A stretch of 51,868 nucleotides of DNA. Origin: Acidimicrobiia bacterium (lineage in GTDB: Bacteria; Actinomycetota; Acidimicrobiia; Acidimicrobiales; SZUA-35). Below, in pieces: positions 17,074 through 51,868 of this stretch. The stretch is from NCBI GenBank assembly GCA_029863385.1, contig JAOTVU010000014.1, forward strand, positions 1 through 51,868, given 5' to 3'. Every line of letters starts with the position of its first letter. The stretch's first letter is position 1. The position numbers and the translations under genes are program-made. A model generated the notes under the pieces. It was not told the DNA's origin, searched no databases, and was given only the letters and a program-made list of their open reading frames with translations.

Positions 17074-18021
17074 TTGGCTCCGCCCCTTTTCGTCGACATT
17101 CGGCGAGGCGACCACGTCGAAAGTCGTCACGAGGTCGATGCCGTCGTCGTCGATCACCAGGGCTCGATCGTCGGGTCGTGGGGCGAGGCCGATCGTCCGG
17201 TCATGCCCCGGTCGTCGGCCAAACCGCTCCAGGCGGTCCCCCTGGTCGACACGGGAGCGGCGGTCGCGTTCGGCGTCGACGACGCCGACCTGGCGCTCGC
17301 CTGTGCGTCGCACAACGGGGAGCAGGGGCACGTCGATCGGGTGCTGGTGTGGCTGGATCGCCTGGCGCTTGGCGCCGGTGATCTCGAGTGCGGGCCCCAG
17401 TATCCGGTGCACGAGTCGGCGTTCGTTGATCTCGTGGCGTCTGGTGGCGTGGCCGGCCCCGAGCACAACAACTGCTCCGGCAAGCACACCGGTTTTCTGG
17501 CCGTTTGCCGGCACCTCGACCTGCCGACCGCTGGGTACATCAAGCCCGACCATCCGCTGCAACGCAAACACGTCACACCGACCATGGAGGAGCTCTGCCG
17601 CTTCGACGCCAGAGCCCAGAACCCGTCGATCGACGGCTGCGGCATCCCGGTATGGCAGATCCCGCTGGCCGATCTGGCCAGAGGTTGGTCGCGGCTCGCC
17701 GACACCGCCGTGGGTTCGACGCTGCTCGACGCCATGATTGCCGAACCGTGGTTCGTGGCCGGTTCCGATCGCAGCTCCACCCGTTTCATGACCGATGCCC
17801 TCGAGCCGGTGGCGGCCAAGGCCGGCGCCGAGGGCGTCTACTGCGCCGTTCTCGTCGACAACCGAACAGCAATCGCACTCAAAGTGCGCGACGGTGCCGC
17901 CCGCGCCGCCGACGCGGCCATGGAATACCTCCTGGCCGGCCTGGGGGCGGTCGCCGCCGTCGATCACCCGTTGCACAACCGGGCAGGCACGCTCGTCGGT
18001 TCGATCGAGGTCACGGCGTGA
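17074..18021 (+). CDS. L-asparaginase II-family protein (PF06089 type)
   Basis: A 315-residue protein matching the asparaginase II family of plant-symbiont and actinobacterial type: VMPRSSAKPLQAVPLVD, LACASHNGEQGHVDRV, HNNCSGKHTGFLAVCRHLD, NPSIDGCGIPVW. Members are thought to hydrolyse asparagine to aspartate and ammonia. TTG 17074, only 10 nt after rplA, is the only sensible start and keeps it in the same transcript. Two hairpins follow it. It is unrelated in function to the ribosomal genes around it. Confidence 0.85.
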   Translation: MAPPLFVDIRRGDHVESRHEVDAVVVDHQGSIVGSWGEADRPVMPRSSAKPLQAVPLVDTGAAVAFGVDDADLALACASHNGEQGHVDRVLVWLDRLALGAGDLECGPQYPVHESAFVDLVASGGVAGPEHNNCSGKHTGFLAVCRHLDLPTAGYIKPDHPLQRKHVTPTMEELCRFDARAQNPSIDGCGIPVWQIPLADLARGWSRLADTAVGSTLLDAMIAEPWFVAGSDRSSTRFMTDALEPVAAKAGAEGVYCAVLVDNRTAIALKVRDGAARAADAAMEYLLAGLGAVAAVDHPLHNRAGTLVGSIEVTA

Positions 18022-18026
18022 GCGTC

Positions 18027-18079
18027 GCACCTGCGGAGCAGGTGCTCAGCGGTGTTTCGCCTGACGGCGAAACACCGCT
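18027..18079 (+). terminator. Tandem perfect hairpins after the asparaginase gene
   Basis: First hairpin: GCACCTGC/GCAGGTGC (18027-18034, 18038-18045). Second: a perfect 14-bp stem AGCGGTGTTTCGCC (18048-18061) with its complement at 18066-18079 and loop TGAC. No T run follows. Likely a factor-assisted or U-less terminator. Confidence 0.6.
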
Positions 18080-18115
18080 CGTTGGAGCCACCTGTATGGG
18101 ATCGGAGGTGGACCG

Positions 18116-18625
18116 TTGAGCAGCGCCCGGGCTCTCGTCGCCCTCGGTGCGTGGACGACACGACAATGGTTGGGGGCCGCAGTCGGGGCCATCGCAGTCG
18201 TTCTGATCGTCGGACTGCCGACCGACGTGATCCCCAATCCGGTTTTCGGTCGACCCATCTCGGTGACCTGGTGGTCCTACCCGGTGCTTGCCGTGACCGC
18301 GGTCCTCGGTGGACTGCTCATCGGAACCTACGTGCAGGCTCACCGACCCGACGCAGGTTCCGCCGACCAACCGCTCGACGCCGGAGCCGAACGGCAGGCG
18401 AAGACCGGTGGTGCCGCCGGGCTGCTCTCGTTCTTCGCAGTCGGGTGTCCGGTCTGCAACAAGATCGTGCTGCTGGCCGTCGGAACCGCGGGCGCCCAGC
18501 AATGGTTCGAACCCGTTCAGCCCCTCCTGGCGGTGCTGTCGATCGGGCTGCTCGCCTACGCCCTGCGGTCGCGCCTTTCGTCGACCGCCGACTGTCCGGT
18601 GCCGGTGCGCTCGTCGTCGACCTGA
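18116..18625 (+). CDS. Membrane protein with a CPVC motif, unknown function
   Basis: A 169-residue protein with about four membrane segments. The third contains FFAVGCPVCNKIVLLA, a CxxC pair inside or at the edge of the membrane. I do not recognise a named family. A thiol-redox role or metal binding is possible from the CxxC alone. TTG 18116 is supported by GGAGGTGG 5-7 nt upstream. It is one of the genes inserted between rplA and rplJ. Confidence 0.7.
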   Translation: MSSARALVALGAWTTRQWLGAAVGAIAVVLIVGLPTDVIPNPVFGRPISVTWWSYPVLAVTAVLGGLLIGTYVQAHRPDAGSADQPLDAGAERQAKTGGAAGLLSFFAVGCPVCNKIVLLAVGTAGAQQWFEPVQPLLAVLSIGLLAYALRSRLSSTADCPVPVRSSST

Positions 18626-50890: not shown

Positions 50891-51400
50891 ATGAACAACC
50901 GGATGAATCGCAGAGAGGTTCTGGTTCGGGCCTGGCAGGCCGGCGCGGCCCTGGTGGCCGGTGCCGGTGTCTGGACCACTTGGGACCTACTCCGCCCCGC
51001 GAAGAATTCGGGTCTGGGTGGACTGATTCGAACGGTGCCTCCGGAGGCTGTCGGCGATACCGGTGCCGTAGAGGTTCTGGCCGCGCGGGCGTTTCTGGTC
51101 CGAATCGACGGAGAAATCGTCGCTCTCTCGGAGACCTGCACCCACCTCGGTTGCCGGGTTCCGTTCTGTGAGTCGTCGAATCGGTTCGAGTGCCCCTGCC
51201 ATGGGTCGGTGTTCAATCGGGCCGGAGAGCTGATCTCCGGGCCGTCGCCACGCGGTCTCGACCGCCACCCGGTGGAGGTGGGGGAGGACGGACTGCTCTA
51301 CATCGACACCGAATCGAAGACACCCGGGGTGGCGCCGGGAACGTTCACCATCGATGAACCGAGCACAGGCCCGTCCTGTGCCACCGAAAGCGACCACTGA
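50891..51400 (+). CDS. Rieske iron-sulfur protein
   Basis: A 169-residue protein. The N-terminus NRREVLVRAWQAGAALVAGA is a Tat-type signal-anchor with twin Arg. The Rieske cluster motifs are CTHLGCRV and CPCHGS, giving two Cys and two His ligands, followed by GPSPRGLDRHPV. It passes electrons from quinol to cytochrome c on the outer face. ATG 50891 follows GAGGAG. A 49-nt repeat pair follows this gene. Confidence 0.93.
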   Translation: MNNRMNRREVLVRAWQAGAALVAGAGVWTTWDLLRPAKNSGLGGLIRTVPPEAVGDTGAVEVLAARAFLVRIDGEIVALSETCTHLGCRVPFCESSNRFECPCHGSVFNRAGELISGPSPRGLDRHPVEVGEDGLLYIDTESKTPGVAPGTFTIDEPSTGPSCATESDH

Positions 51401-51404
51401 TGCC

Positions 51405-51453
51405 GTCGCATCGCCGGAGCCGCTGCTCACCGAGTTCGGCTTTGCCGAACTCC
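51405..51453 (+). repeat. 49-nt direct repeat, copy 1
   Basis: It begins GTCGCATCGCCGGAGC and ends with a hairpin GAGTTCGGC, ttt, GCCGAACTC (51432-51452). It matches copy 2, 93 nt downstream, with one difference. Confidence 0.8.
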
Positions 51454-51497
51454 TCGCTGGTGGTTTCACCTGGAGATCGATCGGGTTTTGGTGTGCG

Positions 51498-51546
51498 GTC
51501 GCATCGCCGGAGCTGCTGCTCACCGAGTTCGGCTTTGCCGAACTCC
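51498..51546 (+). repeat. 49-nt direct repeat, copy 2
   Basis: Same unit as copy 1, with C to T at position 17 and the hairpin at 51525-51545. Both copies lie in the 208-nt gap between the Rieske and cytochrome c genes. Confidence 0.8.
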
Positions 51547-51608
51547 GACTCACCGGCGAAACGTCGTCCGCTGCTGATGGATGGATGGGACCGAAAGGTG
51601 GCCCGGTA

Positions 51609-51868
51609 ATGCCGTACGGATACGCGACCGACTCCGAACTGGACGAATCGACCGATCGGGTGATGACGGCCGGTGCCGTCCTGATGCTCCTTCTGGTCGC
51701 CGCGTTTCCCTTCTATCTGCTCTATGAGCCGGGGGCCCGAGAGCAAGCTCGAAGCGTGCAGCACGACTCGCTGGTCGAGGAGGGCAGCTCGGTCTGGGCG
51801 TTCAGCTGTGGGTCGTGCCACGGCGAAGCCGGGGAGGGTGTCTCGGCCCCCGCTCTCAACTCTCGACA
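51609..51868 (+). CDS. Membrane-anchored cytochrome c (cut by window end)
   Basis: The first 86 codons are present. One N-terminal membrane helix (VLMLLLVAAFPFYLLYEPGA) is followed by WAFSCGSCHGEAGEG with the CxxCH haem-binding motif. It is the likely electron acceptor of the Rieske protein in this operon. AAAGGTGG precedes ATG 51609. Confidence 0.85.
   Translation, partial: MPYGYATDSELDESTDRVMTAGAVLMLLLVAAFPFYLLYEPGAREQARSVQHDSLVEEGSSVWAFSCGSCHGEAGEGVSAPALNSR

Follow-up and report, generated by a model that had tools for sequence, protein, structure and literature searches.

A palindromic repeat family at start codons in Acidimicrobiales and its probable relay of stop/start overlaps between genes

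The Rickettsia palindromic elements (RPEs) are palindromic repeats of about 150 bp that carry an open frame and keep the reading frame when they lie in coding sequences (PMC10969869). The enterobacterial ERIC-like repeats RU-1, RU-2 and RU-3 are likewise small mobile sequences, with open frames that are fused to host genes (PMC2759123). REPs and GTAG-REPs are palindromic, occur in many copies and are often found beside stop codons. The ends of GTAG-REPs can supply a TAG stop (PMC3733652), and some REPs lie within 15 nt of a stop (PMC12306157). The pneumococcal BOX elements are transcribed with operons, and some of them make open frames or provide stop codons (PMC3049150). Termination-reinitiation at overlapping stop and start codons (ATGA/TGATG) is documented for gene pairs (PMC6728339).

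The junction between the Rieske and cytochrome c genes

The window analysed here is a stretch of 51,868 nt, contig JAOTVU010000014.1, from the genome of an Acidimicrobiia bacterium of the order Acidimicrobiales (assembly GCA_029863385.1; 5.04 Mb, 293 contigs, completeness 92%, contamination 5.6%; G000 in the following). Its relevant features are given below, where R1 is a covariance model built from nine copies of the repeat.

18018..18119, + strand: further canonical copy, from GTGA to TTGA, between two co-directional genes (R1, 87.2 bits)
50891..51400, + strand: Rieske iron-sulphur protein gene (open reading frame; PF00355, E 2e-13)
51398..51402, + strand: TGATG at the 3' end of the Rieske gene, including its TGA stop (open reading frame)
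51399..51493, + strand: first unit, consisting of hairpin 1, hairpin 2 and a tail of the CACCTGGAGATCGATCG kind (R1 model match)
51400..51406, + strand: left copy of the 7-nt direct repeat ATGCCGT, a duplicated cytochrome c start (sequence)
51400..51609, + strand: 69-codon open frame, from the ATG in the Rieske stop (TGATG) to a TAA in the cytochrome c start (TAATG)
51408..51426, + strand: position of hairpin 1 in unit 1, imperfect in this copy (model alignment)
51432..51452, + strand: hairpin 2 of unit 1, 9 bp with loop TTT (sequence)
51494..51608, + strand: second unit, with a head like that of unit 1 followed by a second arm and tail of the main (98-nt) type
51525..51545, + strand: hairpin 2 of unit 2, 9 bp (sequence)
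51593..51601, + strand: Shine-Dalgarno-like GAAAGGTGG 5' of the cytochrome c ATG (motif judged by eye)
51609..51615, + strand: right copy of ATGCCGT, the cytochrome c start itself (sequence)
51609..51868, + strand: cytochrome c gene, truncated by the end of the window (weak Cytochrom_C match; CXXCH)

The two 49-nt copies reported in the preliminary description are present at 51405-51453 and 51498-51546 and differ at one base, or at two when lengthened to 53 nt. Their reported distance of 93 nt is correct as start-to-start spacing but not as a gap, since 44 nt lie between the copies. Each copy closes, as described, with a hairpin of the form GAGTTCGGC-TTT-GCCGAACTC, a perfect 9-bp stem at 51432-51452 and 51525-51545; 100 shuffles gave a mean of 0.00. 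R1 matched unit 1 at 51399-51494 (E 1e-5 genome-wide; 51399-51491 and 33.8 bits with filters off) and unit 2 at 51492-51609 (E 9e-12 genome-wide; 57.4 bits). The downstream gene scored 20.4 bits against Cytochrom_C, below the cut-off of 21.3, and its translation contains a CXXCH motif (CGSCH). Searches against Rfam gave three chance-level matches inside the cytochrome c gene and none on the window elements, and no match at E<=1 in six element loci.

The frame noticed earlier is present as well: from the ATG at 51400 in TGATG, 69 codons are open up to the TAA within TAATG. The distance from this ATG to the cytochrome c start is 209 nt start-to-start (3n+2), and a Pfam search with the 69-codon frame (51400-51609) gave no match. 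A second frame across the interval is also open and continues into the cytochrome c gene, and any one given frame over these 204 nt is open in 24% of dinucleotide shuffles. Taken alone, the window frame therefore proves nothing and is unremarkable by chance; the weight for the coupling frame rests on the family and not on the window locus. The insert begins in an alternative frame (MPSHRR) and finishes in the canonical one (WDRKVAR*), and its indels appear to sum to a preserved phase. As part of the overall explanation proposed below, we consider it likely that the insert is made up of two units of a palindromic element of the REP/MITE-like kind that is dispersed in the genome.

The repeat family and its position relative to genes

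The exact window hairpin was found nowhere else in G000, allowing up to 2 mismatches, and the family is visible only with diverged matches; blast and a relaxed pattern located such copies at further sites in the genome. R1 gave 58 matches in G000 at E<=1 and 44 at E<=0.01, both window copies included. The preliminary description had called for a genome-wide search, and had made its reading depend on the unit recurring and the frame being kept. The near-exact 49-nt unit recurs nowhere else, whereas the diverged unit does so at many sites and the frame is kept in most start-codon copies of this family. The copy at 18018-18119 is a canonical 98-nt unit with cancelling one-base indels of its own; its open frame closes on the terminal TGA, with the upstream stop at position 4 and the downstream start at -4.

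At E<=0.01, R1 matched 16 of 61 genomes, G000 counted: 9 of the 11 others from the same genus, 6 of 25 from other genera of the same taxonomic family and 0 of 24 from other families of the order. Two genomes, G006 and G008, gave 0 matches both with R1 and with R2, a model of the hairpins only. Tandem copies at 98-nt steps occur in six genomes (G000, G002, G003, G004, G005 and G023), and one array of 7 units was found. A search of 298 genomes across the order, restricted to 13 candidates per genome, gave only G000 at E<=1e-7 (with 13 of its matches) and is a weak negative. One strict exact pattern of the main type matched 4 stretches in the GTDB r220 contigs, all from two Acidimicrobiia/Acidimicrobiales bins, in a scan from which records near G000 may be left out. 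One copy of the element had no match in plasmids and phages, and one element pattern had no exact match in viral contigs.

The canonical unit runs from RTGA through a short head, hairpin 1 (19 nt, 8 bp), a short linker and hairpin 2 (11 bp with one bulge) to a tail with a GGAAGGT-like stretch at its end, a few nt 5' of the next RTGA, and measures 98 nt from start codon to start codon. Binding of the tail to the anti-Shine-Dalgarno sequence is only slightly beyond that of shuffled sequence (-8.3 vs -7.2 kcal/mol). Covariation was assessed in an alignment of 31 distinct 98-nt copies built without structure. Changes on both sides were found in 10 of 19 pairs, against 7.2 in shuffles (1/500). The cells changed on both sides numbered 82 against 30 (0/500), far above slid controls, and 93.9% of the cells were paired against 79.7% (0/500), whereas the number of pair types did not exceed shuffles (265/500). 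Only 7 pair cells had a one-sided change, which suggests that the palindrome is no less important in the DNA than in the RNA.

Many unrelated sites, a conserved stem-loop and empty sites in relatives (see below) place the family among REP/MITE-like repeats in the broad sense. The target-site duplication of classical MITEs is indicated by permutation tests, with a length that varies and is not sharply defined. No terminal inverted repeats were seen by eye in the aligned copies, and a parent transposon was sought as Y1_Tnp and RVT_1 only.

The statistics in the following include 43 of the 44 G000 matches at E<=0.01 (C153, at a contig edge, was dropped) and the better-scoring copies of G003 (10 of 19), G004 (15 of 46), G005 (19 of 46), G002 (4 of 9) and G023 (10 of 19), but not those of the 10 other genomes with matches; the copies used are related by descent, with a bias towards well-preserved ones. 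To call the flanking coding strands, a codon model was trained on 27 long frames of the window. These 101 copies fall at 75 sites, 69 of which have both flanks present: 45 '++' (both genes oriented like the element), 2 '--' (both opposed to it), 6 '+-', 3 '-+' and 13 with an unclear flank. Among the 45 co-directional sites, 36 have the downstream start on the terminal RTG (-4) and 3 have it at -1, which makes 38 distinct sites. In 24 the upstream stop coincides with the TGA of the opening RTGA (+4), and in 4 it lies at -14, the matching place in an 18-nt longer head. The exact upstream overlap together with a start at -4 or -1 is seen at 21 of the 45. Most copies with start codons rebuild a stop/start overlap at their 3' end, where the frame closes.

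Since R1 includes the RTGA ends, positions were also analysed with R2, which was built from 22 members (19 start-codon copies and 3 behind tRNA genes). This model gave 44 matches at 35 sites in G000. A start codon is found at the 3' end in 20 of the 32 sites analysed, 13 of which also have an upstream stop that overlaps or abuts; the other 12 include sites after tRNA genes, sites beside convergent genes, and fragments. In G003, with 18 sites matched, the start codon is present in 8 of 9 analysed.

Copies located directly 3' of tRNA-Arg, tRNA-Met and tRNA-Ala genes were observed in G000 (L068, L114 and L117/L116, on C77, C201 and C33/C2). These tRNA-adjacent copies, some of them tandem, have different tails and lack the coupling frame; they may represent an older reservoir of the family. 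A 40-nt fragment of the element (L100, G000:C41 11811-11850) lies seemingly within a running coding frame, as RPEs do.

The junction gene names used here are readings of the sequence, and nine downstream products were tested with Pfam. Products downstream include FAD-binding MurB-like, CNNM, Fe-S succinate dehydrogenase-like, FGGY kinase, ABC transporter, citrate-synthase-like, PLP decarboxylase and M18 peptidase proteins. By eye, and judged by the -10 motif, the starts at C247 and C206 look leaderless; at such starts, the mRNA would begin with the mini-frame as its first frame.

Empty sites, duplicated starts and the open frame

The preliminary description had attributed the interval to insertion of a repeat element and had proposed a comparison with relatives lacking it. 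Two such relatives, G003, with 86% identity in Rieske, and G011, have a direct overlap (TGATG) of the Rieske and cytochrome c genes without the element; the empty site in G003 reads TGATGCCCTAC. With these empty sites and the diverged unit recurring at many sites, insertion is well supported.

Seven further junctions were compared across relatives. The murC-murB junction is occupied in G000, shows a direct overlap in 7 of 10 orthologues and has the element in 0 of 10. Direct overlaps are found in G003 at the C16 and C275 junctions; the nine other orthologues of ten at C16 have spacers without a recognised element. The sdhA and sdhB genes overlap directly in G003, G009, G010 and G002, and are separated by different insertions in G000, G004 and G005. 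The ybeY-corC pair overlaps in G008 and G010 (the G003 match, at a contig edge, was left out). At the RNase J-like site (C86) the stop in G003 lies 4 nt before the start, without overlap, and the two orthologues found for rhaA-rhaB do not overlap either.

The start of the sdhB-like gene was struck in three genomes by apparently separate insertions (G000:C163, G004:C179 and G005:C117) and is possibly an insertion hot spot. At the Rieske-cytochrome c junction of G002 (L165, G002:C125) there is a different hairpin insert of 47 nt, which is open and has TGATG on both sides. This raises the question of an independent insertion at the same junction. As a close repeat the 47-nt insert was rejected, as a search in five genomes gave only the perfect match to itself and three single matches with 3 mismatches.

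At sdhB in G005, the 15 nt ATGAGCACACGACTG are found exactly on both sides of the element. Over 47 sites, bases 4-6 of the start region (the R of RTG being base 1) agree between the two ends in 112 of 141 comparisons, against 92 when permuted (0/2000); the individual positions 4-6 gave P 0.0015, 0/2000 and 0.002, and agreement elsewhere was not significant. Matches of at least 7 nt from TG between the ends occur in 10 of 46 against 3.8 permuted (0/2000), and matches of at least 10 nt in 6 of 46 against 1.5, although two of the long matches (G023:C81 and G003:C796) are leftover unit heads and not target sequence. At these two loci (L154 and L118) about 20 nt of element head form the beginning of the downstream gene, as might remain if an array contracted and one piece stayed joined to the gene.

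None of the 31 distinct 98-nt copies has an internal stop in the coupling frame, whereas 16 and 8 have one in the other two frames (0, 18 and 8 before duplicates were removed from 35 copies, one of them from the tRNA-Ala array). Among the 56 copies with start codons at both ends, two of which, in C2, belong to the tRNA-Ala array, 46 have a frame that ends precisely at the terminal TGA; the figure is 48 of 68 when start codons are chosen less strictly. The start-to-start distances of the 56 are 3n+2 in 47, 3n in 7 and 3n+1 in 2, and five of the 3n cases (G023, G005) read in phase beyond the terminal start codon. Even copies that are not 98 nt long are 3n+2 in 12 of 21 cases (47, 83, 89, 95, 101, 110, 113, 116 and 155 nt). 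One-base insertions are balanced by one-base deletions in 11 of 31 aligned copies (by eye), which proves the existence of such balancing and not its frequency, as 98-nt copies were preselected and several rows seem to be one event. The C239 remnant, a 47-nt unit, has lost both hairpins but kept the frame and both overlaps. The frame is broken in some copies (G000:C86, G005:C109 and G003:C894).

Under a column-resampling null, the coupling frame is expected to contain a stop in 3.0 copies when resampling is done within genomes and in 2.6 when it is pooled; the observed 0 of 31 corresponds to P 0.034 and 0.06, respectively. At these values of 0.03-0.06, selection for an open coupling frame is probable but not proven. 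The codon positions of the mini-frame have no third-position excess, and the peptide itself therefore does not look selected. The earlier suggestion that coupling survives the insertion stands for the overlap and the frame, which are kept in most start-codon copies of the family; translation through the interval is predicted from sequence.

These results could also be read as the work of an element that merely prefers an RTGASC target, its open frame being a by-product of sequence and copying, without selection for coupling. RTGACC and RTGAGC do dominate both ends, the coupling frame was stop-free in the 31 distinct copies to begin with, the resampling null is exceeded only mildly, and the lack of a third-position excess is as expected of such a by-product. 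However, target preference alone predicts copies inside genes, yet 38 of the 45 co-directional sites are at start codons and a single fragment, that in C41, was seen within a running frame. The preference for 3n+2 in lengths other than 98 nt, the one-base indels that cancel and the C239 remnant, with frame and overlap but no hairpins, also speak against a by-product, and we hold this explanation to be unlikely. A host regulatory RNA kept at each site between genes (an attenuator, or a processing or stability hairpin) would account for covarying hairpins at gene junctions and for the orientation bias of 45 '++' against 2 '--' sites, and REP hairpins near stop codons are known to stall ribosomes (PMC12306157). 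Such an RNA is very unlikely given the patchy distribution (G006 and G008 have no matches although some of the same junctions exist there without the element), the functionally mixed downstream genes, the array of 7 units and the 7 one-sided against 82 two-sided pair cells, a better fit to a DNA palindrome.

The recurrent MTVAPAEQVLTEFRLAAKRRPLESFVWDRKVDR-like translation of the 33-codon frame might point to a family of real small proteins. But translation of the window copy and of C105 begins in another frame (MPSHRR.. and MTSHRR..), G023 reads a different peptide over the same hairpins, and neither a codon-position signal nor a Pfam match was found; we dropped this reading for the missing codon-position signal and consider it extremely improbable. 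The element is short, palindromic, intergenic and present in many copies, as in a REP/RAYT system, where REPs are moved by a Y1 tyrosine transposase. However, PF01797 was found in 0 of 8 genomes searched (the control was positive in 5 of 14), which speaks against a Y1 transposase as the mover, and a 98-nt unit with two hairpins and a target duplication fits poorly; membership in such a system has hardly any chance of being correct. A reverse transcriptase was rejected as the mover too, as RVT_1 exceeded its cut-off in 0 of 13 genomes, with one sub-threshold match in G002 (controls positive in 3 of 14).

Proposed mechanism and comparison with described repeats

The explanation that we prefer, and regard as probable, is that a REP/MITE-like element lands at start codons, duplicates them and relays termination-reinitiation. 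The element would enter at the start codon of a gene, leaving the first bases of that gene (RTGNNN; once 15 nt) on either side of the insertion. The left copy of the start would retain the old overlap with the upstream stop and open a short frame, of 33 codons in the canonical unit and 69 in the window, and the tail would give a Shine-Dalgarno-like stretch and a stop overlapping the right copy. A ribosome ending the upstream gene could then start again on the mini-frame, pass through the hairpins to its stop and there start once more, now on the downstream gene. Stop and start codons do overlap, the feature by which a translationally coupled pair is recognised, and with the overlap rebuilt at both ends and the frame open, an insertion need not break translational coupling. 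This passage of ribosomes through the mini-frame, like mobility within living populations, is what the sequences lead us to infer.

Insertions into operons are normally expected to be polar. The chances seem to us evenly balanced that these repeats constitute an operon-adapted class of insertion element with a built-in relay (a duplicated start, stop-free passage through its own hairpins, a Shine-Dalgarno sequence and a stop overlapping the next start), able to spread within polycistronic operons without polarity and even in tandem through RTGA hand-over. If this is true, mobile DNA could settle at little cost between coupled genes of central pathways, such as those for the bc1-type complex, the MurB-like enzyme and the succinate-dehydrogenase-like iron-sulphur subunit, and the copies offer dozens of natural tests of the reach of a termination-reinitiation relay. 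By analogy with E. coli, where REPs within 15 nt of a stop codon lower translation or slow ribosomes (PMC12306157), the hairpins of the element may nevertheless cost expression or slow ribosomes near the stop.

The closest described systems differ from this element in several respects. Nearly half of the described RPEs sit within genes and join the protein (PMC10969869), whereas the present element sits at the start codon, with its frame closed by a stop overlapping the next start. The RU repeats have another sequence and another host, and the parts of that report consulted describe no start/stop overlap or coupling (PMC2759123). REPs and GTAG-REPs are shorter, at 20-40 nt (PMC3733652), and are tied to tyrosine transposases, none of which was found here. 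Three BOX frames examined were without good Shine-Dalgarno candidates, and a double start/stop overlap is not described in the consulted parts of that study (PMC3049150). Termination-reinitiation, the mechanism that we propose at both junctions of the element, is known for gene pairs (PMC6728339); here, a repeat element would rebuild the overlap at both of its ends. The PMC full-text literature yielded no description of repeats that keep a start/stop overlap, an absence that stays unproven with subscription papers mostly outside this scope. By analogy, the element is best viewed as a small palindromic insertion repeat, nearest in behaviour to the RPEs, RU/ERIC, BOX and GTAG-REPs, and what appears new relative to these, as far as the consulted parts of their descriptions go, is the start/stop overlap restored at both ends.
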